A stretch of DNA of 64,000 nucleotides from Plumapathes pennacea (taxonomy: Eukaryota > Cnidaria > Anthozoa > Antipatharia > Myriopathidae). Every line of letters begins with the position of its first letter. Positions within the stretch are counted from its first letter, which is position 1. A program made the position numbers and the translations under genes. Of the stretch, positions 9,696-61,470 are shown piece after piece. The notes under the pieces were generated by a model, which did not search any database, was not told the origin of the DNA, and was given only the letters and a program-made list of their open reading frames with translations. Location of the stretch: positions 1,371,501-1,435,500 of the forward strand of contig OZ038462.1 of assembly GCA_964036295.1 (NCBI GenBank), written 5' to 3'.

Positions 9696-12600
9696 GTTCG
9701 CTCGCAGTTGTGAAGTGTCGCCTGCTTTCACACGGAAATTGAGGCTGATAAACCACGGACGAGAACCAGTCACAGATCTGGATTGCACGTTTTACCTGCG
9801 TCTTATGCATTATTGATGTTCTTTGTTGTGTAAATGATTTCTTTGTGTTATTCAGAAGCAGATCCGGAAATGTGGTTGCTTTTCAGGGTTCACATTGTGT
9901 TCCCAGTCTTTCTCGACGGCGCTGAGTTACAGTCAGTAAATTTCCTGCCGAACACTTTCACTGTTGAACTGGAACAGAGCAGGATCCCGAAACAATTAAA
10001 TACTGCTCATTTTTTCTCAACAAGTATTCTTAAATATTTTATTTTTGCATCAATAGCAACTAAGCATTAATCTATTTCTGAGCACCACATAAACAAAACA
10101 GTTTTATCATCCGATGTTGATAGTTTCCCGCTGAAAGCTGACTTCCCCGGCAAAGTCAAGGCAGTATAGTTTCTAAAACAAACTCTGGTCTCCCTGATTT
10201 CCTTAATTATCGCGGAAAAGGATTGTTTGTCTCAAAATCTATCTGTTTGAGGATTATTGAATTAGGTGAAAGCTTGAGACACGGCAGGTGTTACGGGTAA
10301 GCTTTATTCTGATTGGATGATTGGGAATACGTATGTGGGCGCATGCGCAAGAGACTGAAAATTGTCTCAACATTTTAATTTGCGTGAGCCGTAAAACAAC
10401 CAACTGTCAAATGTCATTTGTCGGTCACTATCTCTTGTCCCTCTTCTTAATGAAAGCAAAGTAAACGAAAAACGTTTGAAAAGATAATAATTGAAACAAC
10501 AAATATTGTATAATCACAAGATAGATGCGTAATATGTTTTTTAATTGGAAACTGAGCCACTCACGGATTGACTAAAAGCATCGATTCTTTGGTCTGGAAT
10601 AGGGTAGTGTATTTTGGTCTTTGGTCAGAAATAGGGCGGAAGTTGCCTTCGGCTCTGATATGTGGAAAATTTTGGAACACAGGTCTTAAATTGGGTCGGA
10701 AATTCGTCTATTTTGGTCTCAAATAGAGTACTAAGGGTTTTGATAACCGGGCGGTACACTCCTACCCAAAATTATGAAGAGTTATCCAACCCCTCCCTCC
10801 GGGCTTCAGAAGCTGTCCAAGCGTTTTTTTCAAACTTGATGGTCAATATCCCGAGTTCGAAGCAGTTACTTCAGCTAGTGCATGCCAATAGATAGTGATT
10901 TTGGAAGGTTAACTTGAATCATTTGTGAAGTTTACAGAGAAGAGATACGACCGTTCACCTGTATTTTATTGCGACATGCATGTCCAATACCGCGGCTCGT
11001 AACGAATTGTAGAAGTGAGTTGTCCATCCGTACGGATCGTACGAATCGCATAATGAATTCACGAGTCGTGCGATACGTACGGATCGTCTAATGTCTTCAC
11101 GAGTCGTAAAGAAGAGCTGACGATTAGTGAATGTCATTAGGGACACTTAGACCTTTCATGATGAAGTTGAGCAGTGGCAATCCGTACGATACGTACGAGT
11201 TGTGTAATGTATTCACGAGTCAAAGAAAACTTGTCGATCCGTATGGATCGCATAATATGGAATGGTAGGTGTACGAATCATCTAATGCTTCACGAGTCAC
11301 AAAAAAGTTATGACGATTCGTGAATCTCATTGGAGGAAGTTTCACGATCCTACTTAAAACACTACGCGAAGTGCACAAGCATTATGACATCGTGCGCATG
11401 TGCATATAGGCGCGTTCAATTGGTCAGAATACGTCACGTGAATCATTCGGACAGACATTTCTGGTTTTCTAAAATCTGGTCTCTGTTGCGTTTGTTGTCG
11501 TCGTGCGCATGTGCATATGGAGGCGCTCAATTGGTCAGAATACATCACGTGAATCATCCGGACAGACACTTCCGGTTTTCTGAAAACGTGTCTCGTGATG
11601 CGTTTAGTATGCTGCCTACTTCGTCGGCAGCAGTAAATGTTCGGTTTGGAGGTATCAGAGACTCCGAAATTCCTGATTATAAGCCCATAATGGTTTCAAC
11701 AATGGCTTTTTTGTAGCGAAATCACGCGGGACGTATAAACCAATCGGCGTGTGCTAATTTTCGACAGATAAGAATATTGTTATTATAGACATCATTCAAC
11801 TTGCGATCTTAGACGAGTCTCCTTGGGCACTAGTATAATAAAATATGGTAACAGAAAATCCCTCCCGATTATCAGTCCCCACCACCTTAATATAATTTGA
11901 ACGGGCCAGCGTCCTCATTTCTCACTTAAACTGACTGGAAGAATGGTTTATTGTAGTAACCTTAACTGCGCTGACATTAAAGCTGATAGGGCTAATGAAT
12001 TTGGTTCCTGTATATGCACCCCCTGAAGCTTATTGGAATTTTACAATATCTACGGAAGGAGTGTGAGATTTTACGGTATGAGGTGTTTCCACGAGTTTCT
12101 AACTTTGAAATGAACTGCGACAGAATAATGTCAAAAGAATAATGATCCTAGCTCATTGTATATCAGTGGGAGAGGAAAGAGTGTATAAAATATTGGATAA
12201 TATACTTTAACGTTGCAAAATTGTAAAAAAAAAAAGATAAATTACAACTACACTAACGTGATTAAAGTACTTTCTTGTAGGAACTTCACATCATTTGCTG
12301 TGACTTCTGCTATGTTCACACAGGTTTAACTGAGTGTATACAAAACAAAAGTTTAGCGTGATCGAGTTTGAAACCTGTTTCGCTTTGAGATTACCCTGTG
12401 AGCAGAACCTACGTTTCTAGTGGGGAAGATTGAAGGAAGAAGGCTCTGCCAGAAAAATCGACATTCTCCGTTAAGCATGCGCGAACGCTGTATCACCAAA
12501 CCTGTCAGAGCCTCGTTTCAAAGAACACCGTGGGCACAAAAATAGTGAACCATTTACCGAACTGCACATGCGGGGCCCTCCTGACTTGTATGTCTGGTTT

Positions 12601-12838: not shown

Positions 12839-14038
12839 CTAGGCACTGAACTGCAAGATCCCTTTCAGGACTGCCTGGCACTGTCCTTCCCAAGAGTATT
12901 TCTCGTCATATTTCTGACACATGTCTTGGGCCTCAGCGAGACGAAGCTCTCTGTTGTTCTCTTTGACAGTCCTAATGCGATCACGCCAGTCCTCTACCCT
13001 ATTAGAAGTTACCACGCACATATTTCCGTAAGGCAACTTTGCCAGGGCTCTCGCAAGTCCAGAGTTATGGCAGATAAGGATGGACATACAAGCTGAGAGA
13101 GCCTGCAGGCCAATGAAACCAAAAGCCTCAGTTTTAGAGGGAAGGAAAGGTACAATCAGCAAATCTGCTTCAACGAACAGTTGGCAGCGTTTCTCTACGC
13201 TCTGAGGATGGGTCCGTACTTTGAGGTTCTTGCGAGAATTTTCGCACTCGAGGATCTGCGCCAATTCATTAGGATCATCCTTTGGAGCGCAAACAGCAAT
13301 CAACTCGCACTGCTTGTCCTGCAGCATTCCAACTGCTCTGGCTGGAATGCTGTGGATCCCTTTACAAGAAAATTCTTTAACAGAGGGATAAAAAGCAACC
13401 ACTCTGAATAACGTACTTTCAGCATACGACTGTGGATACATTTGGAACTCCCTGAATATGCCAGGAGTAAAGCCACGGACTGTCTTGTTACAATAAGTGA
13501 GCTGCCGTTCCAAGTCTGTGGCCACATCAGTCCCAATAGCAAAGGTCAAATCTGACTCTTTACAAAACTGAATTTCACTGTGGTTCTCATCTTCAGTGGA
13601 AGTACATGCAACGTGAATCCACCTGCTCTCGGCAAACTGTCTCTTTAGAATCGGAACCTGTCTTCCAACATCCTTACCATGCGCTACGATGTAATTTACA
13701 CCAACTAAACTTTCAGGAGGTAGATATACGTAGTCACAAGTTGGGAAACCATTCACACCGGTTATGCCATAAAGTTGGACACCTGATGCATTAGCGTTGG
13801 CCTGCATGTCGCTGTTGGTGTGAGCCACAAGACAAGAAACCTGAACCTCCTTACTCTTACTAAATTGCACTGCCATTTCCTTGGTGATGCTTGAAATTCC
13901 TTCATCGCAATTGGACCAGCCCCATGTCTTAGCCAGTAAGAGGAGATGGATTGTGCTCCTTGGAGACAATGGCTGCTCTGAGGAACTTCCATCACTGCGA
14001 CTGTGATCGTGACCATTTTCACTAGACTGAAATGGCCG
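12839..14038 (-). CDS. C-terminal GT4-type glycosyltransferase-fold exon of the composite gene
   Basis: This is a single 1200-nt exon (acceptor TTTTTTCCTGTAG; stop TAG at 12841-12839). After a Ser/His-rich lead (RPFQSSENGHDHSRS) it shows a GT-B N-half: TIHLLLLAKTWGWSNCDEGIS, VNYIVAHGKDVGRQVP, RWIHVACTSTEDE and ESDLTFAIGTDVA. The C-half has RVVAFYPSVKEF, CELIAVCAP, FVEADLLIVPFLPSKTEAFGFIGLQALSA and MSILICHNSGLARAL. GT4 enzymes carry EX7E here; this protein has E then seven residues then Q. There is no early in-frame ATG (the first is about 45 residues in) and no stop between the acceptor and the domain, which supports its being an internal exon. Group 1 glycosyltransferase domains fused to NACHT are reported in coral NLRs. 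Confidence 0.85.
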   Translation of the reverse strand, partial: RPFQSSENGHDHSRSDGSSSEQPLSPRSTIHLLLLAKTWGWSNCDEGISSITKEMAVQFSKSKEVQVSCLVAHTNSDMQANANASGVQLYGITGVNGFPTCDYVYLPPESLVGVNYIVAHGKDVGRQVPILKRQFAESRWIHVACTSTEDENHSEIQFCKESDLTFAIGTDVATDLERQLTYCNKTVRGFTPGIFREFQMYPQSYAESTLFRVVAFYPSVKEFSCKGIHSIPARAVGMLQDKQCELIAVCAPKDDPNELAQILECENSRKNLKVRTHPQSVEKRCQLFVEADLLIVPFLPSKTEAFGFIGLQALSACMSILICHNSGLARALAKLPYGNMCVVTSNRVEDWRDRIRTVKENNRELRLAEAQDMCQKYDEKYSWEGQCQAVLKGILQFSA

Positions 14039-17000
14039 CTACAGGAAAAAACAAACAAACAAACAAACAAAAAAAATGCAAGGACCCATTAATTTATTGA
14101 GCCCAAACCAACAGACAAGGCCCTCACGAAAAGCTACCTGAGAATAAGACGGTCCTCATAAAAACTTATCTTATAACTACATGATATTTTTGTCCGTGCT
14201 TTCTTTGATTAAGGTCATTACTCTTGATTAAACTGGATTTATTCCATTGTGATTATTATTTACTAGAAATACGATAATTAACAATTATCCCACGAAGGCT
14301 TGCCGAATATGGATTGATAAATAACCAACGAGGCGCCGTACAAACTTCTCTGTAGTGTGTGTACCACTCGACATACCGGACTCGACGTATCGCCGATCGA
14401 TCGACATCAAAATCTCCCCGTTTTTCGAACATGCGGCAGCTTCAGCCCGCCGGCTCAAATTTTCTTTCTGGACTAATTTCCGATTTCCAAAAGAACTGTG
14501 GTAATAAAAATAAGACGAAATGAATGGAGTACCGAAAGTGCTTCTGGGATCGTTTGGGGGGACGCGTGTATGAAAAGCATGGCGGTAGCAAGTCAAGGCC
14601 GCGCAATAAACTCTGATACTATCTTTACTGAGGGCAGTTAGAGATCTTATCACTCTTCCAACCTTATCCGCTATGTGTTTCATACACGCGTCCCCTCAAA
14701 ACGACCCCAGAAGCACTTTCGGTACTCCATTCATTCCCAGTCTTATTTTCAGTCTATCTCATTTCCAAAGTGACGAATATTTATACTTTCTTTCACTCGC
14801 TCGTGGCCGCCATCTTTGATTTCATTCATTGAGTGTGACGTCATAGAAGGGGCCTGGGAAAGAGCGTTACACACACGCGGTTGCTAAGCGTATTACTACA
14901 TAGAGCCAATTGTGCATAGGACCCAATACTAAAATCAAAGCAGCAAGGCAGCTGTAATCTCGCGAATTTGTAAAAAGTGCTTTTGTTTGCGGGAGTAGCT
15001 ATTTAATAGAACTGGCTCAATTCACCACTTTGTGGTGAACGCGGGCTTAAAAAGTGTTTTATAATAATTGAGAAAAAATAATTATCGACGCGGTTTTCAC
15101 AGGTCACGCAACCGCAGCACCCTCCAAAATAACAGATTGTACCTTTTTGACTCCAGAACTAAAAGGAGCATGCCTGAATTAGTCCAGATGCCAATTTTGG
15201 ATTGTCTGGGCTGCATTTTGGCGAAGCAGCGGCAATTTTTTTTTTTTGAGATTTGATAATTGTATGCGGCCGCCATGTTAGTCGAACTAGGAACACGAAA
15301 TGAAGCTGATCTGTGACTCAGCTTGATGTTTAGTTACTTCACATCTTTCGCAGTGCCAATTTTAAAATGTTTCGTGAAGGAAAACTTTATAATTCAGACA
15401 CAAGCACCGATTTTAGTCGGCCACGCGCGTGTCACACGGCTTTGGTGTCACGGTTGTATTCAAACGTCCATAGCTCCCGATAGATATTTTGTATCGACCG
15501 AGAATTTTGCTTAAGTCTTAAGGCATAATAGTCTTGAACATATCAATGTATTGGACTTATAGGATACGTAGATGGCTTTTTATGACGTCACATGCAAACC
15601 AAGAATTGAAATACCTGACTAATTTGGATACTGTATGAACTTGTAAACATTCACCGGAAATGGATATATTTGGCTTTTTTATAGTCGACATTCAATACCT
15701 TTTCGGCCTAGTATCTTCCAAGCCGTATTTACTGTCACTACAGAAATTTTGGCGGATACTAAACCAACGGCTTCAGATTTTTTTGCGATATATTAATAAC
15801 GCCATCGGTGCCACTGATTGTTTGACCTTCATGGCACCGCGCCAAAATGTCGCAATAACAACGCAAAACACAGCAGAGTGTAACACAACGGATATCAGAA
15901 ACAGTGGCCAAACAAACTTCGGAACGCATGACAACCTTCAAAATGAGAACACGTTCCAAACAAAAATATGGTCGCAACAACTACGACAACATCTTCCTTT
16001 TAAAACTGCGTTGTTCGACACACCTGTTACGCGACCTTCATCATGCCCAAATTTGGAAAACCGCAACTGCTTTATTTGGAAATCCATTGTTGACAACAGA
16101 GGGAACATGGAAGTAGGGAAGGCAAAGTGATTTTAATGCCTCGCAAAAATGAAACATTCTTACCCCGCCATGATTTTCAAAGGAAAATAGCAGTTCGACT
16201 TTAACGTTGGTTTCATCTGCTACAAGGAACTTGATCCTCTTTGTGTCATTACTTCCTTTAGAAATTGACACCTGAAATTGCTGGTAGTTCTTGCAAAAGC
16301 TTGGCCATAACTGTTTGGATTCGACGGTCTAATTTAAGAAAAAAGAACAGAAAAAAAAAACAAAAACAAAAAAATAAAACAAAACAAACAAACAAAAAAC
16401 AAGAACAACAGAAACAAAAATGACAACTCGGTTAAAACCAAGGTGAGCAGTACAATCCTTAAGTGACAACGAAAGTGCTGAGGTTGGCAGCTAATGATCA
16501 AACAATAATACTGTTGTAAACTTGTTATATTTCGAGATAAAACGTGCCTGAGTTTTCAGTATTGCTAGTAGTATTTTCAGGAACTATAATTTTTTGCGGT
16601 TTTCCAACCAGCAAAAACTAGTTTCCACAAAAATTGCCTTCTCGCCAAAACTGAAAACAAATAATATTCAGCACTCTCTTACTGTTGGCAATACTGTGCA
16701 ATCTTTTCAGCAACTTGTCTCGCAACGGTTGAAAGTTTTTCGTTGCAGTTGCGGAGGTGGGGTCTTACATTGTGCAACGCAGCCTCAGCAACTTGCAACA
16801 ATTTAAGTCGAGGAAAGTTGGGGAGAAATTGTGATTGGCGCACTGTAAATTCCATACGTCAACACGGCAGAATTTTAATAATCATAAGGAAGTGCACATG
16901 CGCTCTTGATCGCGCTAAGGCAAAAATTGTGAAACAAGTTGCTGGAGGGGTGTTACATTGTGCAACAGCGTTGCAAGTTGTTGCAACGCGTTGCGAAAAG

Positions 17001-20000
17001 TAGAACTGAGTTCTACTTCGTGCAACGTTGCGCGCAACAAAAAGACAAGTTATTGAAAAGATTGCAAAGTGTAACAGGGCCTTCGGCCTGTTTCAAACAT
17101 AAAACTTCACATGCGTCAAATATAATGTAAATTTGCTGAAACAATAGTTTTTGCTCATTTGCATTGTTTTCGACGCATGTGTAGTTTGACGTTTGAAGCA
17201 AGGCCCTGTTACACTGCAATTTTCTCAGCAACTTGTCTTGCAACAGCGTCGCGAGACAAGTTGCTGAAGAATTGCACAGTGTAACAGGGTTTGTGTCGCA
17301 ATTTTTTGTTATTGTTGCGCAACGCGCTGCACGAAGTAAAACTCAGTTCTAATTTTCGCAGTGCATTGCAGCAACTTTCAACGCCGTTGCACAATGTAAC
17401 AACCCCTCCAGCAACTTGCCTCGCAATTTTTGCCTTGGCGCGATCAAGAGCGCATGTGCACGTTTTTATAATTATTCAAATTCCGCCGTGTTGACGTCTA
17501 GAATTTACAGCGCGCCAATCACAATTTTTCCCCAGCTTTCCTCGAGATAAATGGTTGCAAGTTGCTGAGATCACGTTGCACAGTGTTACACCCCACCTCT
17601 GCAAATGTAATGATAATTTTTAACCGTTGCGAGACAAGTTGCTGAGAAAATTGCAGCAACTCTCCAAACGAATATTCGCTAAAATTGCCAGCGATACGGT
17701 GAAAAGGGCTTATGATAGATTTGTGAATTTTATGATTGTTCGTTGTATCAGTATTGTTTATTTTTGAAGACTAGATGAGGTAGAAAAGGCAAAAGTAAAG
17801 TAGAACTTTAATGAAACAACCGCTTTCCTCGAAGAAGGGCAACCTATGAAAGAATAAAATGATTGCAAATAACAAAGAATGCGGAGCGTATGTATGTTAA
17901 CCTAAGATTCAAATCAAACAAGCCAGGATTATTCTAAACAAGAAACAATATTAGTTTGGCGTTGCTACTTTTAACTACACAATGACCAAGAGATAAACTG
18001 CACTGGCCCCTCCAATTTTTACTTTAGTCCTGATAGAGCATCACGTTTATGTTCCATAACATACCCACTGCAAAGGTTCGATGTGCACATCCTGTTCTGT
18101 CCCGCTGCATTCAACTTTTACATTGACGTTTTCATCTCTCTCTACAAACAAAGTCTTCCCTCCATCTGCATAAGAAAGACCCTTTTCATGAAGACGAACT
18201 TCCAGCGCCTGTAAAATAAATATGGTGTAGTCAAATTAAGTTCCAATCAAATTGAGTTCTAAATCAAATGGTGTAACACGCATTTGTATAATCACTAGAG
18301 ATGTTTTGTTTTGTTTTGTTTTTTTCTACAAAATAGCCACTACAAAAAACTACGTCCTAATATTAGAACAGTACTGGCCCGACAAATGATAGTACTGAAA
18401 GAATCATCTCGTCTGTGTTTTGCTGCCATACCTTCACATTCACAAAATTATCCAGAATTTCAAAATACAAAATAGGGCTTTGCTGTACGGACCAGCTTTA
18501 CTAGGCCTGCGCGTAAAATAAAATGGTACGTGACAAAACAAAACTGATACCTCGATAACATGTGGAAGGTCATCACATATGGAGACGGCCACATCTGACT
18601 GGTTGTTTCTCGATGAACTTTTGTGTAAAAAACATGCCAACCTCTTAAGCGTTTTCTCTTTGCCATTTTCATCAAGAACACAACAGTAAGCTGAAAAATG
18701 CGAGCACTGAAAAGTTAACTCATCGTAGCTTAACCGGATTGACTCCACTTCACTCCACCCCTCGTGCATGCAACACATTAGGGTCACTTGTGGCCATTGC
18801 GATTCCGGTAAAACAGGGATTGGGCTCACAACCACAGGAAGTGAGACTGTTACTGGACACTCGAAGTTCAAGTTGCTGGGCTCAAGCCTCAGGACTGGAG
18901 AGACCAAAAGATCAGGCAAATCAGTGAAGGTTTCCAGGCTGATTTCGATCTCTGTGTCCTCTTCCAGTGCACCTGCTGGGATGCTCACAGTGCAGCCATA
19001 GTAAGACAGTTCTGCACCTTTACTTCCCACTACACATACCTTTGGTTGAAGAACAACTTCAGGTAGGACATGACCTGTGTAGCAATAAAATGAAACTTAC
19101 GAAACTTACGTATTAATATATATTAATATTTATTGCGTTCGACGAAGGAGAACGCAACCCTAATCTCCACTGGTGTGGGTTCCATGGAGTCGATGGGATA
19201 TCTGTCACGTGCTTTCGACCAGCGCGAAGAATCGATATTTTTTGGGTAGTCGGACGGTGTGCAAAATCTGCGCCATTTTGAATAGTTACTATGCGCGGTG
19301 TGTCGTACGAGTGACTCAGTGATCACACTGAGGTCTATCAAAGGCAAATACAGCTACTTTTCATTAAAAGAAGCCAATATCTGGGATAATGAGGGCAGCA
19401 CGACAGCAAGAATTCCACAGAAAAATGTAACTTGACTCGCGGTTGCCGTATTTCAGTTTCTGCATTAAAACCGGGTTAAAGTAAACTCAGTATACAACCG
19501 ACACTTTCCTAATGTTACAGATACTTATCTGGAAGAAATATACGGCTTTGTGGAGACAGGTGTCGTGGTGACTCAATCGCAAGCCACAGGATGGTCGAAT
19601 TGCGAAACTCGTGTGCAACTCAACTTTATTTCCGACGAAAGTATTAATCACATTTGATCATGTATTACACTTCCCATATATCTTCAAAGAATGGAAAAAA
19701 GAAGTAGAAAAGAAAGAAAGAAGTTTCGGTTTAATGTTGCTTGGCCGGGGTTTAAATCAGTACCGTGCGGTCTTCCTGCTGGTCACTTCCGGTTTCAGAC
19801 GAAACCCACGAGCTTTTCAAGATCGTTATGGGGAAAAGCATTTTAGAGCAAAAACAACCCCAGGCAAAGAGAAGTTGAACGCACTTGACTACTTTCAGAT
19901 TACTACTAGTATATTGTATATGCGAAGAATCACCGCTTGCTTTCGTGAGAATATCGTAATCGGGTTTTGCTTTCATTCCTGATTGGCCAAGGATACGTCC

Positions 20001-23000
20001 AAACTTGTTTGGGCCAATCGCAATATCAAGCTCAAAGCAACAGTCAAACGATCATTACTTTCGATAGTCATCCGATGTCGTTTTTGAACATACATGGGGC
20101 TTTAAAGAGGCGGTACCTGGATATATTTCACGCTAAATGAATTCCAAGCTCAAGCAATAAAAGCATGCCAAATTCCAAGAGTTCAAATGCGCTTTCATGC
20201 AGCTTTGCTTTGTTTCAACTTATAATAATTCGCCAAAATTGATGGCTTTTTGCGAATTTCATACTTCTTATAACAAAAATAGAATTGGATATTAGGCACA
20301 ATAATATATCATGTTTCAAGCTACCCCGTGATGTGTATATATTTGTCGCCGTAAAGGTGGTGTAAGCCGACCATTCCAACGTTAGCCCTTTGACCTTTAC
20401 CCTTTCACTTCCACGAGTAAAAGGGTAAACTTAAACAATCTTCACGGCAACAAATCAAGTCATTTCATGCACCTGAAATTTGCCTGTGCAAGTACGAACT
20501 CTTTCTGCTTCGTGGTCTGGGTTTCGGCGCTGGAGGATCTAGAAGGGAGTACACTTGTTGTCAGTCTTCAAGTGACAGAGTAACACACAGATGTGTAGAC
20601 CACTGACAGATAGATAGAGTAGACACCGCGGAAATACGTTGACGTCACTTCCGTTGGTCAGCGTTCGTCACCATTATTATGTAACTTGGTATTCTTAACT
20701 CGACGTAAAATTTCACCTCGTGTGCCAGCCCCGTTTTTTCTTCTGAACAACTTATGTAGAAAATGCATTGAAATAACTTATACTTGAGTATTGACTCTTA
20801 GGTAATAAATTCCTTGGCCCAAGTCTTGAGGATTTATGAGTTCAAACTGAACCACAAAATCTCCACTTAAATCTACAGTTTTGTGCAATGACCGCTGACT
20901 AAAAAGTAACGTGACTGCGCGGCCGAAATACGTACGGTATTTCCGCGGTGTCAATAGAGTCCACAAAAGTTCGTTACCTTTCCCCGTTTCCCTTGGGAGG
21001 GGTGGGGGTGGTCTCTCCAATGTCGTACTTTCTCTCGGTGCCCGTGAAACAGTTGGAGGGCGGTTCTGTATCAATAACAAACCAGATATTTTACTGCTAT
21101 TTCAACTATCAGAAACTATAAGAAAGTGAAATGACACTAAAGCGTCTATGTATTATTTCAGTTGAGCCTCTCTACAACGACCGCCGTTGGGTGGCCGTTG
21201 GATCAACCATACTAGTTTGCCTATAGGTGTATCGCAGGAAAAACAAGCGATCAACACTTTGTTTAGTGCGACGTTGTAAAAAGAAAACGGCTATAGAGTT
21301 TTCTGTCTGTCTGTCTGTCTGTCGATCACGGACCATTTACTGTATAGCACTTGTCCTGTGTTTTACATACCTCATCACGTGATTCCAAGCGTAAACCTGG
21401 AAAGAATAAATGATACCAGGTATATTGTAAAAAGCGCTCTCTTCTTTTCTTACAGCCAGACCAGGTCTTTGTGTGCTAATTTTCTTTCTGCTGTTATTTC
21501 TACCCATTTAATCAAGCCAATTTCCCTTTGGCTCACCCAAAGTGAATAATTGTTAAATAGTTTATTCTCTTCAAAAAGCATTATTATGAAAATTCCCATA
21601 GTTACATTTGTAACTGTATCAATATCTCTGGGCTTGTTGGTTTAATGTACTATTTGAGATGACAGTGAACCAAAGCCAATCACAAAGGCTATAAAAAACA
21701 TTTTCATCAAATCCAAGGCCAAAAGAAATTTATGTTTGTTTTCAAACTGAAGAAGAAAACAATTAGCAGTGCGAAGAAACGTCATCACCACTTGTTTGTT
21801 TGCGTGAGATTATCGCAATCGGGTTTTGCTTTCATTCCTGATTGGCCAAGGATGCGTCCAAACTATTTTGGACAAATCGCAAAGCTTATCAAGCGCAAAA
21901 CCAAAGCAATCACACGATCATAACTTTCGATAGTCATCCGAAAACAGCTTTATAACCGAATTCAAGACAACTTACCCCCTTCACTTTGACGCCTTGGAAA
22001 TAACGGGGGTGGAAGAGCGGGATCCCTTTCTTTTCTCGCATCTCCCAGAAATAATGTCGCCTTTGAACGTACATGGGGCCTTGAAGAGGCGGTGCCTGGA
22101 TGAAGAGACAGGCATTAGAATTCTCTACTTACAATCAACTGTATACATTTTTAAATTGAATTTTAAAATGTCTCATTCTTAAAGTATGACAGACATACCT
22201 GGAAACTAAAGCACTTTATAAAATATCTATGATGCTACGCGCGTTCGGATTGGCTAAATAACTGTGTAAGATGAGAGTATATTACACGCTGACGTGATAC
22301 GTAATGTATTAATTATTTTATATAACAAATATATGACGCTTTCCCGTGTCGGCGGCGGTCTCGTGTTCTCCCAACTTCCCGCGTGTTTAGATGAGGCATG
22401 GGAACGCGTTATATATTTCTCAAGTATTATACAAGTGGAACCGTTACCTTCCCCAGTTTCCCTTGGGAGGGGTGGGGGTGGTCTCTCCAATGTCGTACTT
22501 TCTCTCGGTGCCCGTGAAACAGTTGGAGGGCGGTTCTGTATCACAATAATAAACCAGATATTTTACTGCTATTTCAACTCTCAGAAACTATATAAGAAAG
22601 TGAAATGACACTAAAGCGTCTATGTATTATTTCAGTTGAGCCTCTCTACAACGACCACCGTTGGGATAGAGTTTAGTGGCCGTTGGATCAACCATACTAG
22701 TTTGCCTATAGTTTATCGCAGGAAAAACAAGCGATCAACACTTTGTTTAGTGCGACGTTGTAAAAAGAAAACGGCTATAGAGTTTTCGATCACGGACCAT
22801 TTACCATATAGCACTTGTTGTCGTGTTTGTTTTACATACCTCATCACGTGATTCCAAGCGCAAATCTGGAAAGAATAAGTGATACCAGGTATATTGTAAA
22901 AAGCGCTCTCTTCTTTTCTTACAACCAGACCAAGTTAGTCTTTGTGTACTAATTTTCTTTCTGCTGTTATTTCTACCCAATTAATCAAGCCAATTTCCCT

Positions 23001-26000
23001 TTGGCTCACCCAAAGTAAATAATTGTTAAATAGTTTATTCTCTTCAAAAAGCATTATTATGAAAATTCCCATAGTTATATTTGTAAATTTAACCCCAATA
23101 TCTCTTTGGGCTTGTTGGTTTAGTGTACTATTTGAGATGACAGTGAACCAAAGCCAATCACAAAGGCTGTAAAAAACATTTTCAACAAATCCGAGTTTGC
23201 GTTTGTTTTCAAACTGAAGAAGAAAACAATTAGCAGTGCAAAGAAACGCCATCACCACTTGTTTGTTTGCGTGAGAATATCGCAATCGGGTTTTGCTTTC
23301 ATTCCTGATTGGCCAAGGATGCGTCCAAACTTGTTTATACGAACTTATGTGCACTTTAATTTAATTCGTTACTTCTCCTGGTAGAAAGCCCATACCAGGT
23401 AACAGAGGGGGTAGTGGTCCTTTCCTGTTGTAATCGGGGGGACGGGGTAGGGATGCGGCGGCTTTAGGCGTCTGAAACAAATGTTTCTGCCTCTCCTTGT
23501 TCCTCTCCTTTATAAAAAAAGAAGAAGAACAACAACAACAACACCAAACAAAAAAAACAGAACATTGGTAATTCAATCTGAAACACAAATAGACAGCTTA
23601 ATCACCAGGACGGGAGAGGACGACGGCAACGTCGGTGAAACAATAAAACTTATTGCAGAAGACAAAAGGCGCACGTGAATATGTGAAATTGACATGATCT
23701 CGGGTCGTCGTGCTCACGCGTTCGACTCCAGATGCTTCGGTTTTAGGCTGTTTTCAGTACGTGGACGACATTTTGAGACGATGAAAGCAATAGAACTTCG
23801 GCAAAAACGGAACAAATTTGAGAAAATTAAGAATAGGCGAAGTTACAAAGACATAAGGAATATACGGAGACACTGTTTTCCTGGTTCCCCACGTTGCTGT
23901 CGCCGTCCTAGTTTGCTTAAGCTCCCCAATAGCTGAGGACGGCAACGGCAAACTCGGCAAAATAAGAATAACTGCAAAAAGAAAGGTGCAGGTAAATATA
24001 TGAGACCAAGCCGATCTCGGGGTCGTCACCTGCTCTCGCTTGCGACTTCAAATGCCTCGACATTTCGAGAACCATGTTAGATAGTCATTCTCTTTATAAG
24101 AGACGATGAACGCAAAGAACCTCGCGAAAATGTTACTAACACTTCTCGAGACATTTTTTTTTTATTGTTTCCTTGAGATGCCGTCGACGTCTTAACAGGA
24201 AGGCGAAGCTTATCTACGACAATGTAGCACATACAATAAAGGCACAATTTCGATCATATATGCGCCTGAAATAATAAACCGAGCTAGAGATGCGCGGCCA
24301 GTGGACATTCAAAGGCAGCGACCGTTGATAAAACTGGGACTCGCCCCAGGCATTTGCAAACGCGCCACGGGAAGCTGTGACGTTGCGCTCCGAACAGCGG
24401 GACACAAATTTGAATTAAGTGCAAAATGCAGATACTCTCAACCTTTCAAGAAGAAAATGTGTGAACGATGAAGGGTTAATGTATCTCTGGCGGTGAGAAA
24501 ATAAAAGAGAAAATATTGAAGTTGATCACTCAGATTTTCCACACGGCGCGAGACTGCGCAAGAGTTGAGAACAGGAAAAATAACAGAACAACAGTACCTT
24601 TAGTTGTGCCAGCAATTCCATTCTGGAAACCAATCTGCAAGACGCGCCGTGAAAAGAGCAGGTTCGTTGCGTGTTAAAAGGAACGAGAGGGTTTAGTAGT
24701 TTGGCAGATGTAATTTACGCCTAAGGAGTTCTCACTACTGGCTGATCCCATTTAAACAGCACCGTTAAGTGAAAAGTAGTAGTAATAGTATTAGTAGTAT
24801 TAGTAGCTTTACATTCTAGTTCGGCCGTGGTGTTACTTTTCTGTAAATGCTAATAATTACACTGGCATTTACCACCTCAGTAATACATGGCAGTTATCAA
24901 ATGGCAAACAAATTGAACTCTTACGTATCCTCTTCCACCTCTTCCTGGAAATAAAGAGTTTACGAATTAAAAAAAATTACACGTACGTAGATGCTGATAG
25001 AATTCGAGACACTGAAGTAATCAGGTTTAACTCTGTTTCTCCACCATAAAAGAAAAAGAAACATCATTTCTGAAAATGGCTGTCTATTTTAAAGGAAATA
25101 TATTTGGCCAACGGTGTGATGCATATTTAAGATGCATGTACTTGAAATAATTAGGACTGACTTGGTAATGCGAAGAAAGCTGACTAAGGAAGTGACGTCA
25201 AGACTATATTTCCGGCACAGACGTTTTAATAGAAATACTCAGTCATTAATGTCTGTTGGAGAGAAACATACAAAACAAACATAATCAAAGACAACTTACT
25301 TCTTTAAAATCGGTACTCTCGCTGTCGGCCTGGGATAGCGAGAAATAGATAGAAAATAATGATAACAATAAGGACATCAATATTTCCATGACAACACCTG
25401 ATTAAACAATTGCGCAGTGCATGGCATTACAGCCTGGTTTGAATGGAAGAACTGTCAAGAGCAAATATCACGCACCTCTCGACTACTGCTGTAGCTTGAA
25501 GAGCTGGCACTGCTCACATTGCTACCGATACCTAAAACGGTAAATGGCGTTCTTTAACAATACATTCACAGTGCACAGTTTTCACAAAGTTATCTGGAAT
25601 GTAAGCTCTAGTTCACATGTACGCATGCGTAGTACATCCCTCATTAGCGTGCAGCGGAAGAGATACTGTAGCACAGATACAAAGATGCCCGATGAAAACC
25701 TATCGTTATGTTGAATATTATTGGAATTATTAATTCCTCATTCCTCGTAGGCCGCATTCATTACTACGTCAATTGGCTTGTTGCGCGCAATGAATGCTGG
25801 TCATTGTAGTCACGCAGTTCACGAATGCGGCGGCCGTTTTAAAGGTCTCTGATCTTTATGATGATCTAATAACTTCTTGTTGGTTCGCACTTTATACCCT
25901 GCAAACATAACCTTCGATTTCCCCTACTAGATCCTTCTCAAGCGTTTTTGAATAACTTACTTATGCGGGAGCTAGTAGATCCGCTTCTAGAAATTTTACT

Positions 26001-29000
26001 CTGTCATTGTAAAAGGAAACAAAATGTTCGTATTAGTTATGCAGTTATGACAAAAAAGTTAACAAATGCTGGACATGAAGCTAAATATCAAACCTAACTC
26101 AGAAGCCTAACAAAGAATTCCGTTTGCAAGGTAAAACCTTTTCCAACACCAACATCTTCCCTTGTAAAATTTTTACACAATAAACAGCACGTATAACTCA
26201 CACGCATCTGTCCCATTAACTTAGAGTGCGTTTCTTTAATAGATCCATGATCCAAAGTATCCAATTTTGAATATGATCCAGTGAATCAATCCTCAGTGTG
26301 GATCACATGCATTCATTATCCGGATTTGGATTTCAGTAAAGAAACAGAGAATCTGTTCTTGGATTTGTGATCGGGATTTGGATTCCTAAAAAGAAACACA
26401 CCCTTAGTGTCAGCTATTATTCATTATATCCAACAAAAGTCGAGAAAAAAACTAAATAATTACTTCACGATAATATTCAATGTAGACAAATTAAAAACCA
26501 TTAAATGAAAAGACAAACAAGCAAACACATACGCAAGTATTGGTACCAACCTGTATACTCTTTCTTTCACTGCCCTTGCTTCCTGAGAATGAATTCCTTG
26601 TTCGCAATGCAAATTGGTCTCTTCTTCGAACTAAACCCAATCGAAATATTACTTTGATTTTAGCTGGTTGGAACTATTTTTGTGAGAATAATCTTACTTC
26701 GGTTTTCTTCCTCTGCCTCTCGCCAAATATATCGCACAGTACGGAGGATTTTCCAATTGATAGCCTTCTTAGATGAGAACTGATTTAGTTATTAATTCTC
26801 GCTACTGCCCTCGCACACTGTAGATGGAAGAATTTAAGTATTTTTTAGCTCAAGAGTAAAAGGAATGATGTAATGAAACTATACCTAGATGCTGGATGTT
26901 GGAGTTTCCTGTCCGTGGGGAGTGGTAACCCTCCTGGTGCAGAACAACACTCATAGAACGAGGGATTTTATCAACTGGAGCGTTAGAACCTGGGACATCG
27001 TACTCGAACTCAGGGGAAGCCTGGTCTGTAAAACAAATGCAGGAATGTCTGTGTCAGAAATGTCGAAAAATAAAAGTAGTCATATCAAACCAAGCACCCT
27101 GCATTTTACGGCTTCTCACCCCCCCCCCCCCCCCCCCCCCCCTCCATCACGTGATTTACCTGAAGCACTGTCCATTTCTTCATAAATCTCTTCACTGACT
27201 GCCTCCGCAGTTCCGGTGTTTGTGCAGACATAACCAGAACCATCGTTAGGGGCATTTAGTTCAGGTATGTAGTAGTAGCGTCTTCCATCTCTTTCAATAA
27301 AGTCAGTGGGTTGTTCGTTCATGTCACAATAGTCATCCTCGTCACCTTCAGTGCCACCTTGAGAGTTGTCATGGTAATCGTGAGTGCTTGTGTAGACGTA
27401 GAAGTCGGCGCCTTCTTGAAAGTTCATGTAGTGGTACCGTTTGCCGTCCATATCAATGTAATCGACTTCCGCGTCTGGGTTTTGCATGTCAACATAGTAT
27501 GGTTTACTTTTCTCGGTCCCCATGTCTTCATATAGTTCATCCTTGGCCTGAAAATAGCATTCACAATTTTATATCGCTTGAGGAAACGTCCTCACGAATG
27601 TCTTCGACATTTCTTCTATTTAAATATTATAGTATCGTTAAAAAAAAGTTTCTGTTGTCGAAGTCACCCGTCACTTTCATCGTCATGCGCAGTTCGCTAA
27701 GATATTTTGGCGGACAAGCTGACGATAAAACTAATTAGCGGACAAATTGGAGAATGGCTTATTTGATCAAGCTCAGCAGAAAGATTTACTTCACAGGCAA
27801 TCGTTCAAACGAGAAGTAAAACGTACACTGTACTATTTTCTACTGCGCGTGATCGTGAGCAAGTGCAACAAGATATTTGCATCAATGAAAACAAGCGACG
27901 TAAGCACAAGAGGTATACGTCCGTGAAAGCAGGAGACACAAGCGCAAGGACAAGAAATAATGGACTTTGCGCAATTCTTCGGAATGGCCTATCTAAAAAA
28001 AGTTCACACAGAAAAAATTGGCTCTTTAGTGCATTAAACAGCTGAGATATAGGCTTTTGAAGTTCAAATTGCTTCATACTAAACCCTCTTATTTGGTGTT
28101 GGTTCCTTTGATTTGGAACCAACGCTAAATAAGAGAGTTAGTTAAGACTATCTGGAACTTTAAACTTCTCTATCTTCGCTTTCAGTAGGGCTAGCGATTT
28201 GAAATTTTGCACACGTTCTTTCAGCAGCTGTGTATATCGCATGATGTGGTTTTGAGGTTTAAATGGAAAAGTTTGCAAAATGATGATGTCACACTTTACC
28301 ACTCTATTCTGGGTGGCTAGAGCTCCCTGAGTCCAGACTATGTGAGGCAGAATATTTTTCTAGCCCTGACATATGATACAAAGTCATTGTAAGGGTGTGC
28401 TTGCCTGGAAGGCATGAAGAAGCGTTGCCAGCTCAGAGTTTCCCGACGCTTCTGCGAGATTAACTGGCCGCTGGCTGTCTTTATTGCTGAGAAAGCACGC
28501 CTGTAAGGCACCAGGGCACTCCATCAGCTTTTCAACAAGAACAGAAAGTCCATGCTCTGCTGCGAAGTGAAGTAGGGTGGGGTGTTTCATTGCTGAGTGA
28601 CTTGGTCCTTGAGATCCTAATTGAGAAAAGAAAAATCCGAAATGTATGTTGACAAAACGAGACATTTCTTGTAAAAAATGAGTTTGATTTGCATGGAAGT
28701 GAACATGTTCAAATCAAACTTGAAAATGCAGAAACATTTAAAACTTCTCTGCAAATGTGAACATTCATCAAAAGCTTTTGTTTGAGTGGTTACATGACAG
28801 TTCAGGTCACCGTTGGATGCTGTAAACATTACAGTACTATGTAATGTATTCATTGAGAACGTTTCATTTGAGTGGTACTGGTCACACCTCTAGGTTTTAT
28901 TTGACAGTTCAGGAGTTGGAGGTGACCACTGACAGTTTAAACCAATTCTAGGTTGAGTAAAATTTGTTTTACAGTCTTACAGTTAAAACAAAAATACCAA

Positions 29001-30444
29001 AAAAGAAATACACACCTGGGCTTTTAATGCTGTCTAGAAGATAAAATCCACCAGGAGAATTAAGCTGGAAGGAGTCGGCCATGGCACTGTCAAGAATTGG
29101 AATTTCCGAAGGAGAAATTTCCAAGGACTCACACATAAAAGCAACAGGATCTAGAGCTCCCTTGATGAGAGAGCGCATGGATTCGTATCTTGTAGTAAAT
29201 CGAAAGCGGTGCTGCCCCAGAAGGATCCTGTTAAACCCATGATACACATAAGCTGTTACTTCCTCCGCTGGGTAGTAAGCTGAAACAAAAATGCTGTATC
29301 AGTATAACATAGTTTACATAGTATCCAGTTTCTGCAAGTTACATCACACTCATTGAAAAGTACTTGTCATCCAAATTTCTGGACATGCTATGCAACATTT
29401 TTGGTCCTTAGATCAAACTATCATGAACATGCACTTAATACATACATATTCTTCCTTGATCGCTCAAACACAGTGATGCCTAAAAAACTTACGTGGAGTT
29501 TCCAGCTGTAAAGTGAGATTGTTGAGCCGTCTGGCCGTAACTTGCAGTGCCTTTTTTCCCACAAAATCCACCATAAATGGTCCCTTTGCTGGGAGGCTTT
29601 GCTTGAAGATGATAACCATGGGCTCTTTTGCCTTTAATGGAAAATTGTACTCACAATATTACACTCTGTGATGAATGAATGGTATTACATTACAAAAACC
29701 TATCCGCGGTGCCATAAAAACATGAATATAACACAGTCTAAAAAGGCTTTGGGCAAACAAACATCCCATACTGAACAGTGAAAACATGAGTCCTGAGTCT
29801 GAAAAGCAATGCAATCAGAGTATCCTGAAAACCTATCCATTATATATGGGACATACCACTTTCACAAGTACAGGGACAACAGGCATGCAGATGTTAATGG
29901 ACTGAGCCTACAGGTAAATATTTTGGGGGGGAGCAACAAAAAGCTATAATCTGGTATAGCGCAAAAGTCCCTGATACAAATATTTCGTTAGTGCAGACTG
30001 AGATGCTACCGGTCAAGGAAACTGGAGGATGGGTAAAATGAAGAATGGAAAGAATGGAACGGGAAGGCTCTTATTTCACTTTTGGGAAAAGAGCCCTGAG
30101 TATTAACTGCACAATGTGGTGTCAGACTCAGGTGTGCAAAGTTTGTCTACAGCAGTCTGCCCACCCCTTCTCTACCCTATACTCACATTATATTGTGCCT
30201 TTTCTGGCACAATAGCAGCAATCCTCAAATCTACAGAAACAAAGGAAGCATTTTATTCAATGTTAGTCACTGGAGACTTTGACTCCTTCTCCTGTCCCCC
30301 CACCCCACCACCCTGCCACTCTTCCCCTAAACCCAGGGATTAACGTTCCATTGGAATGTAGGTTATAAATATCACACCTTGAGAGGACAATTCTCCATCA
30401 GTATCAATTCCTGACTCTGGCAACCTAGACATTCCACTTGCATG
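12839..30444 (-). CDS. Composite adaptor: DBB - ankyrin - YxxM - Pro-rich - ZU5 - UPA-like - GT4 glycosyltransferase fold
   Basis: Exons on the - strand: 30444-30378, 29631-29493, 29279-29016, 28616-28405, 27547-27160, 27025-26885, 26582-26551, 26000-25961, 25531-25476, 25329-25300, 24944-24925, 24634-24598, 23471-23396, 20538-20473, 19074-18551, 18208-18065, 16271-16164 and 14038-12839. Every junction is phase-compatible. From the first ATG at 30443 the product is 1180 residues. The first exon begins in phase 2, so an upstream coding exon is likely. Approximate residue map: DBB 1-156, ankyrin-like 157-227, YxxM region 228-356, Tyr/Ser/acidic/Pro linker 357-522, ZU5 523-697, UPA-like 698-781, GT4-like 782-1180. 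The front half matches the PI3K adaptors BCAP/BANK1/Dof; ZU5-UPA recalls UNC5 and PIDD. The assembly is by eye, without transcripts; two adjacent genes are the main alternative. Confidence 0.8.
14039..16163. other. intron of the composite gene with a foldback element
   Basis: This is a 2.1-kb stretch between the GT4 exon and the preceding exon. It has an ACAAAC simple repeat at 14050-14075, the inverted repeat at 14500-14750, and open frames (for example 14285-14683 on - and 15660-16130 on +) with no recognisable domain and no good splice context. Confidence 0.5.
14500..14750. repeat. foldback element, ~75-bp arms
   Basis: Left arm 14500-14576 (contains GAATGGAGTACCGAAAGTGC and GGGACGCGTGTATGAAA) is repeated in inverse orientation at about 14677-14750, with roughly 100 bases between. 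Identity is about 90% by eye. It fits a miniature inverted-repeat element in an intron. Confidence 0.8.
16164..18208 (-). CDS. Two beta-rich exons after ZU5 (UPA-like segment)
   Basis: Exon 18208-18065 encodes ALEVRLHEKGLSY, TLFVERDENVNVKVEC and DVHIEPLQW. Exon 16271-16164 encodes VSISKGSNDTKRIKFLVAD and VKVELLFSFENHGG. Both are in phase 0 at both ends. Alternating hydrophobic residues and the position directly after ZU5 suggest a UPA domain, as in UNC5 and PIDD, but the length (84 residues) is short for a complete UPA, so this is tentative. The intron between them carries a nearly 1-kb palindrome. Confidence 0.68.
16685..17660. repeat. near-1-kb imperfect palindrome
   Basis: The left half (16685-17125) and right half (17135-17660) are inverse copies. 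GCAACTTGTCTCGCAACGG matches CCGTTGCGAGACAAGTTGC, and CTCTTGATCGCGC matches GCGCGATCAAGAG. TGTAACAGGGCC matches GGCCCTGTTACA near the centre, about 17130. A further inner palindrome is at 17200-17300. The motif GCAACTTG and its complement occur many times. It sits in an intron of the composite gene and is probably a foldback transposon; no transposase is encoded. Confidence 0.85.
18551..19074 (-). CDS. ZU5-domain exon of the composite gene
   Basis: This 524-nt exon begins after a TTGCTACACAG acceptor with GHVLPEVVLQ and continues VGSKGAELSYYGCTVSIPAGAL, the start of a ZU5 domain (strand, glycine turn, then (I/L)PPGAL-type motif). It continues with TEIEISLETF, LVSPVLRLEP, FECPVTVSLPV, TLMCCMHEGWSEV and FQCSHFSAYCCVLDE; the FxxxHFS pattern near the end is typical of ZU5. 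ZU5 domains occur in ankyrins, UNC5 netrin receptors and PIDD. The exon ends ATCGAG before GTATCA in phase 0. The upstream Pro-rich exon ends in phase 1, exactly what this exon needs. Confidence 0.85.
19948..20130. repeat. first partial copy of an intronic dispersed repeat
   Basis: GAGAATATCGTAATCGGG, TCATTCCTGATTGGCCAAGG, ACTTTCGATAGTCATCCG and ACATGGGGC...GAGGCGG are shared with 21807-22110, and the first part also with 23270-23332. It lies in the intron between the ZU5 exon and the Pro-rich exon. Confidence 0.75.
20473..27025 (-). CDS. Linker exons of the composite gene (Ser-rich, acidic, Pro-rich; eight of 20-76 nt)
   Basis: Exons 27025-26885, 26582-26551, 26000-25961, 25531-25476, 25329-25300, 24944-24925, 24634-24598, 23471-23396 and 20538-20473. 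Apart from the first (141 nt) they are 20-76 nt long. In order they give SKGSERKSIQ, SKISRSGSTSSRI, SNVSSASSSSYSSSRE, ADSESTDFKE, EEVEED, LVSRMELLAQLK, LPRPPDYNRKGPLPPLLP and PPAPKPRPRSRKSSYL. The last two carry PxxP-type SH3 ligands, as in the Pro-rich tail of BCAP. Each was accepted only because acceptor, donor and phase fit both neighbours. The 32-nt exon at 26551 has the weakest splice signals (donor GTTGGT). Alternative inclusion of such small exons is likely. Confidence 0.7.
20973..21870. repeat. long direct repeat, copy 1 (~890 bp)
   Basis: This copy begins at GTTACCTTTCCCCGTTTCC and runs through GGGAGGGGTGGGGGTGG, TGAGCCTCTCTACAACGACC, CGATCAACACTTTGTTTAG and ATTGATTGGCC-type sequence to CCAAGGATGCGTCCAAAC. 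It is almost identical to 22443-23335, about 1470 bases away. No protein is encoded. Confidence 0.85.
22250..22440. repeat. TIR-type miniature element related to one in the TMEM9 intron
   Basis: ATGAGAGTATATTACACGCTGACG, CTCGTGTTCTCCCAACTTCCC and GCGTGTTTAGATGAGG are shared with 49190-49450. The flanking TTATAAAATA...GATGCTACGCGCG is shared too. It is inserted immediately before copy 2 of the long direct repeat. Confidence 0.75.
22443..23335. repeat. long direct repeat, copy 2 (~890 bp)
   Basis: This is the partner of 20973-21870, with small indels (for example, copy 1 has a TCTG run near 21301 that is absent here). Both copies lie in one intron of the composite gene, between exons 23471-23396 and 20538-20473. 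Confidence 0.85.
26219..26405. repeat. miniature inverted-repeat element (TIR with GTTTCTTT)
   Basis: The ends TTAGAGTGCGTTTCTTTAAT and AAAAGAAACACACCCTTAG are imperfect inverted repeats, and the interior holds several GGATTTGGAT / ATCCAAA motifs in both orientations. It is intronic in the composite gene. Confidence 0.55.
27119..27142 (+). repeat. poly-C tract
   Basis: This is a run of about 24 C on + directly beside the donor of the YxxM exon, 17 bases beyond the splice site. On the transcribed strand it is a G run, which could affect splicing. Its length may be unreliable in assembly. Confidence 0.8.
27160..27547 (-). CDS. Tyrosine-rich exon with six YxxM PI3K-docking motifs
   Basis: This exon of the composite gene encodes 129 residues with YEDM, YVDM, YIDM, YHYM, YCDM and YEEM. 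Phosphorylated YxxM is the classic ligand of the p85 SH2 domains; vertebrate BCAP carries the same motif type after its ankyrin region (family knowledge). The exon shows an internal duplication: DYIDMDGKRYHYMN followed by FYVYTST, and DFIERDGRRYYYIPE followed by GYVCTNT. The second copy has lost the Met of YHYM (YYYI). Acceptor TATTTTCAG; donor GGTAAATC at 27159. The next exon adds EYDVPG (a YxxP type SH2 site) and EGYHSP. Confidence 0.88.
28086..28135 (+). repeat. perfect 21-bp hairpin with 8-nt loop in an intron
   Basis: CTCTTATTTGGTGTTGGTTCC at 28086-28106, loop TTTGATTT, and its pairing partner at 28115-28135. All 21 positions pair if two G-U wobbles are allowed in the + strand RNA. On the - strand (the gene's sense strand) those two become A/C mismatches. 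It could be a tiny element or a small-RNA hairpin. Confidence 0.7.
28405..30444 (-). CDS. DBB and ankyrin-type exons of the composite adaptor gene
   Basis: This is part of the 12839-30444 gene. Exons 30444-30378, 29631-29493 and 29279-29016 encode a DBB domain: MQVECLGCQSQELILMEN, then PFMVDFVGKKALQVTARRLN, then EEVTAYVYHGF and the conserved DPVAFMCESLEISP. Exon 28616-28405 encodes HPTLLHFAAEHGL, ECPGALQA and NLAEASGN, which parallels the LPTLLHFAAKYGL / CPGALQA ankyrin part of BCAP. In Dof, BCAP and BANK1 the DBB domain mediates dimerisation and coupling to receptors. The last exon ends CAG followed by GCAAGC, a GC-type donor. If it is not used, the frame reads on only seven codons to a stop. 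No TIR-like N terminus was found upstream. Confidence 0.85.
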
Positions 30445-31019
30445 CTGCAAATAGAAACAGCTTTGTCACACATAAACTGCATTTAAATGATGACTGGGGA
30501 TAGCAATGCGAAGGTTCACTTGCATTTAATGAACTAATATATATGCTGTGCTCCGATAACCTCAAGATTGACTGGCTGACTATTGTTTTTGACTCGGCAC
30601 CTTATTAAAACATTAATCCTCTGAGCAAAGCGAGGGGTTTCTAAACGTGACAGCATCTGATTGAGTGAATGTCGAGGAATGTTCGTCTGTCATTCAGTCA
30701 GTCAAGAGGCAGACAAAACTTCATGTAAAGACTATCGGAAAACTATTCCACTCCTTATAAGGCAGTTCGTTCCTTATAAAGGATGCGTTTGACAGATTTG
30801 AACTAAACTTTGAACGAGGATTGAGTGGAAAATCCGTATTTAGCAAAGCCGCGAAGTACAAAGCCTTCGAAAACAAAAGCAGAGGCCAGAAATTGCTGCC
30901 ACAAAAGGATTATATGACAGAGTATGAAGTAAAAGCGGGCACAGCAGACAACTGAACTCCGCAAAAACTACAGTGCATAAAACTAACGGCTTTGAGGCAT
31001 CTGATCTGAGGACAACAAA

Positions 31020-32030
31020 CTCAGTTCCAATCGCGATGCTGTTTTGTGTTGAACGTAGGTACTTATTCAGAAATGACAAGCAACAAAGGTCTGCAGTCAG
31101 TGGAAATTGACAACCGTGACAAATTACAAGTACATTTATATTCTCGTATCCGGTGACTTGACCATTCAAGAAAATAATATAATCTGAATGCTGATAATTT
31201 TCTCTCAAAGTGTTGTTTTTAATACGCTTCTGTCCCCAGTACATACATACATACTTTATTTACCCGTCCCCAAAGGGGCTTTTCAGGGAAAATGTTAACA
31301 TAAATTGCAAAGAATATAATACAATCCCAATACTACTATAATAGTCCTAATACTACTATATAATAGTTTGGGCTAGGGTATTCGCACAGCGCAATCCGGA
31401 ACTTGGGGCTTGAATGTTTTAGTCAGATGGAGCTACCGCATGTTTTCTTTCAATATCAAACAATTCAGCTGGAACTGCAACTGTGTAATTCGAGAAATGC
31501 GGCTGCGATTTGACTACCCTCCGAGCTGCGCGGCCGCATCCTGTGAAGGATGACTAGGTTTGAAGCATGTATACAACTTTAAGTAAACCCTTCAAGTTTT
31601 GCTTCGATTCTTGGAGAAATTTAGGCTGTTTTGATGTACAAAACAGTTTGGTTTCATAAAGTATTCACAACCTAGACAATGCCACGGTTCAGTGCCCTTC
31701 AAAGTTTAAAATATATCGCACAGTAAGCCTATTTGTACTGCATATGAATGAATTCAAAGCTGGAAAACTAGAAACACACTTCTTCGTTTGTGTTCATTTT
31801 TTTCCGTACTACGGCCGCTCAAGCAGACAGCATAAATTATTTTGGCGCGACGATGACCTCACCGTAAAAAGGTGTACGGCGTCATGCACGGTTATTTTTC
31901 AACGCAATGTTTTTTTCGCCTTTCTTTGCGTGCAGCACTTGACTTCCAAGAAGTTTTTGCGTCAAAACATTAGTAAAGCATCCATGCTAGGGCGAGGGGG
32001 TATCTGCGATTATCCCCGAACGAAGTGAGG
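31020..32030. repeat. duplicated ~1-kb block, copy A
   Basis: It shares with copy B (32655-33570), in the same order: GTTTTGTGTT...TACTTATT, ACAAGCAACAAAGG, CTTCAAGTTTTGCTT, TCGCACAG-AAGCCTATTT, CCGTACTACG, and GGGGGTATCTGCGATTATC. Divergence is considerable, about 25-30% by eye with indels. Confidence 0.7.
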
Positions 32031-32243
32031 GAAATACTCAAGACGCTAATGCAGTAGTATTATCGCCTTATCGGAGACTCCAAGCCTGCCGCCATCTCGA
32101 AATCTAATGTTCGTCTGTCAGTCTGTCAGTCTGTCAGTCTGTCAGTCTTGCGTGCGACCTCGTCCCCAGTTCCTATCGCGTCGCTGCAGAACCAATAACA
32201 AAGGCCGGATCGATCACGTGTGGCTCTGTAGTTTTACTCGCAA

Positions 32244-34388: not shown

Positions 34389-34568
34389 AACGCTCAACTA
34401 TCCAACATTGAGTGGGGGCAGGGGGTAAACTTGAAATCGGCCCAACAGTCCTAAATATAGCCTTAAACAGCGATTTTGCTTCTGCGGAACCCCCCATACA
34501 ATCATGGTCAAAATCAAGTTTACCCACTCCCCCTCCTCCCCTCCCATTCAGTGTTGAGAAGTTGAGCA
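34389..34568. repeat. foldback element
   Basis: CGCTCAACTATCCAACATTGAGTGG...GGTAAACTTGA at the left is inverted at 34512-34568 as TCAAGTTTACCC...CATTCAGTGTTGAGAAGTTGAGC. A related single copy is at about 54660-54760 (CCCATTCAACGTTGG, GTGCTCAACTACTCAACATTG). Confidence 0.7.

Positions 34569-61469: not shown

Positions 61470-61470
<1 letters not shown>

Follow-up and report, generated by a model that had tools for sequence, protein, structure and literature searches.

Gene model and genomic context

Within the window (the whole stretch of Plumapathes pennacea DNA analyzed, 64,000 nucleotides), we reconstructed a minus-strand model that runs from 30444 to 12839 and has 22 exons with matching phases, which join into one open frame of 1,318 codons. 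The introns are GT-AG throughout, except for one GC donor at E5. The first exon, E1 (30378-30444), was placed by phase and splice signals and carries an in-frame ATG at 30432; its strong acceptor (9.6 bits) implies a further 5' exon upstream. The final stop of the joined frame lies at 12839. An earlier note on this DNA had the coordinates, strand, and frame right, including a first exon from 30444 and a stop-ending last exon at 12839, but it counted 18 exons where the model requires 22, among them a tandem-duplicated pair (E13b and E14b). Two candidates were rejected: a GC donor for E16 at 20484, which breaks the frame that the GT donor at 20473 (the site given in that note) keeps, and an extra exon near 26000-25962, set aside by eye because its phase is incompatible with E7.

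The E2/E3 and E3/E4 joins are backed by homology, since a single domain match spans E2-E4; joins from E5/E6 onward have no homology support, and those of E16 to ZU5, ZU5 to UPAa, UPAa to UPAb, and UPAb to the GT4 exon are based on phase, open frame, and splice signals. We compared 5 of the 22 exons with a control of 59,404 bp that contains none of the model's exons (31000-41400 and 42200-61500, each on both strands), counting as equal any candidate with the same phases that was at least as long and as strong. UPAa, UPAb, E12, and E15 had no equal and E16 had one. The splice matrices were built from the model's own sites minus the tested one, hence the scores are not independent of the model.

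Three minus-strand bHLH open frames flank the locus, at 9279-9791, 41527-42081, and 62255-63289 (Pfam HLH, 1.3e-18, 3.5e-17, and 4.8e-19, respectively), which we take to be achaete-scute-like. A plus-strand open frame at 32417-32773 is made of repeated charged units (QRMNAD, QRLKAN) and has no Pfam match at 0.01. At 45710-46087, repeat units SSVTEKQVKIGPNLHAVRFRE lie in a frame open on both strands, the minus strand being without a Pfam match at 0.01, and a minus-strand open frame at 4938-5234, presumably resembling a stretch of the nucleoporin Nup37, likewise has none at that threshold.

A Dof/BCAP-type adaptor with duplicated proline-rich exons

The upstream part of the model encodes a DBB domain (PF14545, 1.2e-16, positions 2-138 of 139) distributed over E2 (30187-30230), where Pfam and the splice model place its start, E3 (29493-29631), which also showed a weak match to the BCAP structure 6sws (E 0.31), and E4 (29016-29279). 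E5 (28405-28616) encodes ankyrin-like repeats: in a PDB-sequence search it matched ankyrin-repeat chains, mostly designed ones, with a best value of 1.2e-05, while Pfam Ank_2 stayed under its cut-off at 0.19. YxxM motifs number eight in the whole model and six in E6 (27160-27547), where every one of the six Met belongs to such a motif; shuffled versions of E6 contained a mean of 0.67, and six were reached in 0 of 20,000 shuffles. E7 (26885-27025) follows, supported by phase and splice signals, and then four exons placed by the gene model, i.e., the Ser-rich E8 (25476-25531), E9 (25300-25329), E10 (24925-24944), and E11 (24598-24634).

The remaining adaptor exons, also from the gene model, comprise the Pro-rich E12 (23396-23507), E13 (22840-22865), E14 (22448-22535) with the SH3 ligand RPPPPLPR, the Pro-rich E15 (21976-22095), E13b (21371-21396), E14b (20978-21065), and the Pro/Arg-rich E16 (20473-20538), which ends at the phase-1 donor CAG/gtgcat. 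Three [RK]xxPxxP motifs occur in these exons, one each in E12, E14, and E14b, and Pfam found no match from the end of E6 through E16. Through E16, the adaptor part amounts to ~640 residues. No TIR domain was found by Pfam in the model, nor in the 8 of 90 upstream minus-strand ORFs that were scanned, one of which gave a P116 match below cut-off (E 0.002). The DBB domain, the six YxxM motifs, and the Pro-rich SH3 ligands proposed in the earlier note are thus borne out; its ankyrin-like part is borne out by the chain matches, though below the Pfam threshold.

Self-comparison identified E13b and E14b as tandem copies: the segment 23331-22442, holding E13 and E14, recurs at 21864-20972 with 90% identity and in frame, and the SH3-ligand part of the protein therefore grew by duplication. 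In the 1.4-kb gap between E16 and the ZU5 exon lies a decayed copy of the beginning of E15, acceptor included but donor end missing (20122-20075, 87.5% identity), and behind it duplicated intron sequence (20075-19937), so that this gap is partly adaptor-gene DNA. Large imperfect palindromes lie in two other introns, at 17655-16697 and at 14749-14507 (243 bp, between UPAb and the GT4 exon), and are perhaps miniature inverted-repeat elements.

A ZU5 domain with an HFS motif and a terminal GT4 exon

The next exon (18551-19074) encodes a ZU5 domain and continues into the UPA position. Pfam recognizes the ZU5 proposed in the earlier note (8.8e-07; 29.5 bits, the cut-off being 21), and its match to the ZU5 of UNC5B was equalled by 1 of 1,000 shuffles. 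There is no in-frame Met upstream of the domain in its exon. The UPA-like segment of that note holds as a position only. For UPAa (18065-18208) and UPAb (16164-16328), both from the gene model, no similarity was seen: Pfam returned no UPA match, a pairwise comparison with the UPA of UNC5B gave no support (846 of 1,000 shuffles scored as well), and a PDB sequence search with the ZU5-UPA segment found no ZU5 protein. AlphaFold models computed without relatives, at pLDDT 36.5 and 39.6 (the latter for the ZU5 exon), were too poor for use. Relatives of the ZU5 exon were absent from viral contigs, a collection without eukaryotes and so without bearing on corals.

An HFS motif (18700-18692) lies at the end of ZU5, within the string HFSAY. 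The ZU5 domains of CARD8 and NLRP1 cut themselves at SF/S, and HFS is present in PIDD and Nup98; in ZU5, the site is located at the end of the domain ahead of its last strand (PMC3210808). We paired HFSAY by eye with QLGTY of UNC5B. CARD8 F296 corresponds to UNC5B L677 (PMC3210808), and we identify L677 as the Leu of QLGTY because six UNC5B residues cited in that source (V619, H624, C663, E666, C670, and L677) are placed on 3g5b by one single offset. Counted by eye, 16 residues separate the HFS site from the next KRL, compared to 15 in UNC5B. An unguided alignment disagrees with this placement, pairing HFS ~10 residues earlier than the UNC5B site. If the segment is translated, we put self-cleavage of ZU5 at HF/S at even chances, and the motif suggests that the GT4 end would be separable from the adaptor as its own chain.

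The terminal exon, with the stop (12839-14038), gave a near full-length match to the GT4-conflict family (PF20706, 1.1e-28, 100.8 bits against a cut-off of 26, 350 residues, positions 6-384 of 385), in agreement with the GT4-type exon of the earlier note. In the alignment, its EX7E motif (13103-13129) reads E-AFGFIGL-Q, Gln replacing the second Glu; E-x7-E is present in 13 of 14 rows of the bacterial alignment, the 14th row apparently being a wrong-frame ORF. This Gln would fit a binder with weakened catalysis, although one changed motif residue is no demonstration of activity loss. The PF20706 set comprised 30 loci (L082-L111), 14 of which were read. PF20706 also matched in every one of the 14 control genomes and in each of 15 others searched via cyanobacterial loci (16 loci given, 15 genomes). 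Its presence in all control genomes means that the family name alone is no proof of a conflict role, and the Pfam name probably over-calls such roles. By Pfam, the model contained no NACHT when scanned piecewise, and no LRR, TPR, or TRADD-N. Relatives of the GT4 exon were not found in viral contigs, genome contigs, or plasmids, collections that hold no eukaryotes and have no bearing on corals.

One gene or several

Given a continuous frame, the question is whether the adaptor and the ZU5-GT4 exons belong to one gene. At the 20473/19074 join, nothing about the splice sites is unusual, and E16 has the features of an internal exon, with phase 1-1. The E16 donor (5.7 bits) ranks seventh from the bottom among the 21 donors of the model, and its score is reached by 42 of 1,154 non-model GTs; the ZU5 acceptor scores 7.1 bits. 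Fusion is supported by the 22 phase-consistent exons that keep one frame open to the final stop, and by a gap (1,398 bp) that falls within the range of the other model introns (134 to 2,125 bp) and consists in part of adaptor-gene DNA.

The main rival reading is that of two neighbors on the same strand, i.e., a stand-alone Dof/BCAP adaptor that stops in E16 or at 19528 next to an independent immune gene for ZU5-(UPA-like)-GT4, with a short first exon that was missed, and we consider it a real possibility, somewhat short of even and only slightly behind the reading favored below. It draws its strength, and the fusion is weakened, from an acceptor at 19528 (10.2 bits, third of 1,079 non-model acceptors) that opens a short terminal exon (19515-19528) of four codons (DKYL) and a stop, with AATAAA at 19134. 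This is one of four phase-fitting terminal exons in the gap at 4.5 bits or more, the other three being weaker; left unspliced, E16 runs into a stop within three codons, as judged by eye. It also agrees with the literature: cnidarian Dofs were described without ZU5 or GT4, and two from Hydra have 464 and 598 residues (PMC7260276), compared to the ~640 encoded here through E16, while coral GT4 genes make large families of their own (PMC8195603, PMC12314368). Against two genes, and for fusion, stand the internal-exon character of E16, the lack of an in-frame Met ahead of ZU5, and the content of the gap, where 20472-19140 holds neither a phase-1 ATG-to-donor first exon of at least 4 bits nor any out-phase-1 internal exon (weaker first-exon candidates number two with the threshold at 3 bits and five with it at 2 bits). 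This missing first exon supports fusion only mildly, because simulated gaps contained a mean of 1.88 first exons at 4 bits but none in 28% of cases, and 2 of 5 ordinary model introns also lacked one at 5 bits. The in-phase fusion announced in the earlier note thus fits in frame, phases, and splice signals, whereas the join itself stays putative and faces a strong rival terminal acceptor. Weighing sequence evidence of this kind, we hold an in-frame fusion of the adaptor to ZU5-GT4 to be a matter of equal chances, and two products from one locus, one short and adaptor-only and one long and fused, would satisfy all the evidence at this join.

A further split, into three units with an adaptor, a ZU5 protein, and a GT4 protein, would place the GT4 exon in the third unit and turns on the 16164/14038 join. 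There, the gap is the largest of the model (2,125 bp), includes the 243-bp palindrome, and offers four possible first exons of phase 0 that score at least 4 bits, the best at 15650 with 7.4 bits. However, the UPAb donor is sound (7.8 bits, phase 0) and fits the GT4 acceptor (7.8 bits), and the GT4 exon, judged by eye, starts with a Ser-rich linker and has no Met before the strand-like IHLLLLA; we regard three units as improbable. We tentatively favor, at not quite even chances, a Dof/BCAP adaptor gene of cnidarian type with a long product that would run through a self-cleaving-type ZU5 and a UPA-position segment into a GT4-conflict glycosyltransferase.

Relation to known systems

The adaptor part shares with Dof/stumps, BCAP (PIK3AP1), and BANK1 a DBB domain, ankyrin-like repeats, YxxM sites, and SH3 ligands. 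Most bilaterian members have an N-terminal TIR, whereas none was found in the model and the 8 upstream ORFs scanned here, its lack having been reported for the cnidarian Dofs of Hydra, Acropora, Exaiptasia, and Nematostella, which were described with DBB, ankyrin, and SH2/SH3 motifs (PMC7260276). The locus differs from Dof, BCAP, and BANK1 in that six YxxM share a single exon, a pair of proline-rich exons is duplicated in tandem, and a ZU5-GT4 tail may follow, undescribed for DBB proteins in the portions of the literature examined. The terms "ZU5" and "glycosyl" are absent from the text on cnidarian Dofs (PMC7260276).

With PIDD, CARD8, and NLRP1 (FIIND), the locus has in common a ZU5 with an F/S motif at its end, in the form HFS as in PIDD, while the C-terminal effector here would be a GT4 and not a death-fold domain, and UPA is assigned by position only. 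With the GT4-conflict proteins (PF20706) of corals and bacteria, it shares a near full-length match, the C-terminal position, an animal gene, and immune-type partners; it differs in that Pfam found no NACHT (a domain of the coral GT4-NLRs), LRR, TPR, or TRADD-N, and unlike retaining GT4 glycosyltransferases it has E-x7-Q rather than E-x7-E.

In animals, GT4 domains have many conflict-type fusion partners and were proposed as effectors, with over 500 GT4 paralogs in Acropora digitifera (PMC8195603). In Acropora, group 1 glycosyl transferase genes that also encode TPR, LRR-NACHT, or ankyrin are expanded (PMC12314368), and cnidarians are reported to pair NACHT with ZU5 as well as with glycosyl transferase domains (PMC8260672). 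GT4 joined to another signaling partner is thus in line with corals. Among the matches listed from the open-licence literature, the text available mentions no protein that combines DBB with ZU5 or GT4. The novelty claimed in the earlier note accordingly narrows: coral GT4 fusions had been described (PMC8195603, PMC12314368), and what is left is the DBB partner and the intervening ZU5. Judged by the accessible parts of this literature, a PI3K adaptor joined to GT4 via a ZU5 with HFS would be a novelty.

A possible self-cleaving switch

CARD8 yields two fragments, ZU5 being in the N-terminal and UPA plus CARD in the C-terminal one, and it is triggered when the N-terminal fragment is degraded (PMC9213247). 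By analogy to this scheme, with GT4 in place of CARD, we propose that ZU5 would cut itself at HF/S after synthesis. The N-terminal half would consist of DBB, the ankyrin-like part, YxxM, SH3 ligands, and most of ZU5, and would remain bound to a C-terminal half made of the last ZU5 strand, the UPA-like segment, and GT4. The N-terminal half may dock at receptors and, once phosphorylated, recruit PI3K, while attack on it or its degradation would free the GT4 half as an effector. A short adaptor-only product ending in or just past E16 may exist besides. Release of the GT4 half as an effector is in our estimate less likely than not, and more doubtful still is the specific reading of the PI3K adaptor as the bait half of a self-cleaving ZU5 switch, in which attack by a pathogen or symbiont, or turnover, would free a glycosyltransferase effector.

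The earlier note had instead seen in the GT4 end a glycan or nucleotide-sugar sensor controlling PI3K docking by the N-terminal part. The Gln in EX7E would fit such a binder with weakened catalysis, with the limit already given for a single residue, but the GT4 family has been proposed to act as effectors and not as sensors in the parts of the source available (PMC8195603), and the HFS motif points to a split of the two ends into separate chains. We find the sensing claim unsupported and give it very little credence; in its place we propose a ZU5 that would cleave itself, with a GT4 end that can be released.

In CARD8 and NLRP1, a self-cleaved ZU5-UPA restrains a death-fold effector. If the self-cleaving switch proposed here is true, this design would extend from death-fold to enzyme effectors, outside vertebrates, and receptor signaling would be tied to the GT4 families that are greatly expanded, and poorly understood, in corals. 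Should the bait reading hold as well, tampering with growth-factor or Toll signaling would lead to an enzyme-based immune response. Even if the locus comprises two genes, an HFS-bearing ZU5-GT4 protein would offer a testable idea for how coral GT4 proteins may be switched on.
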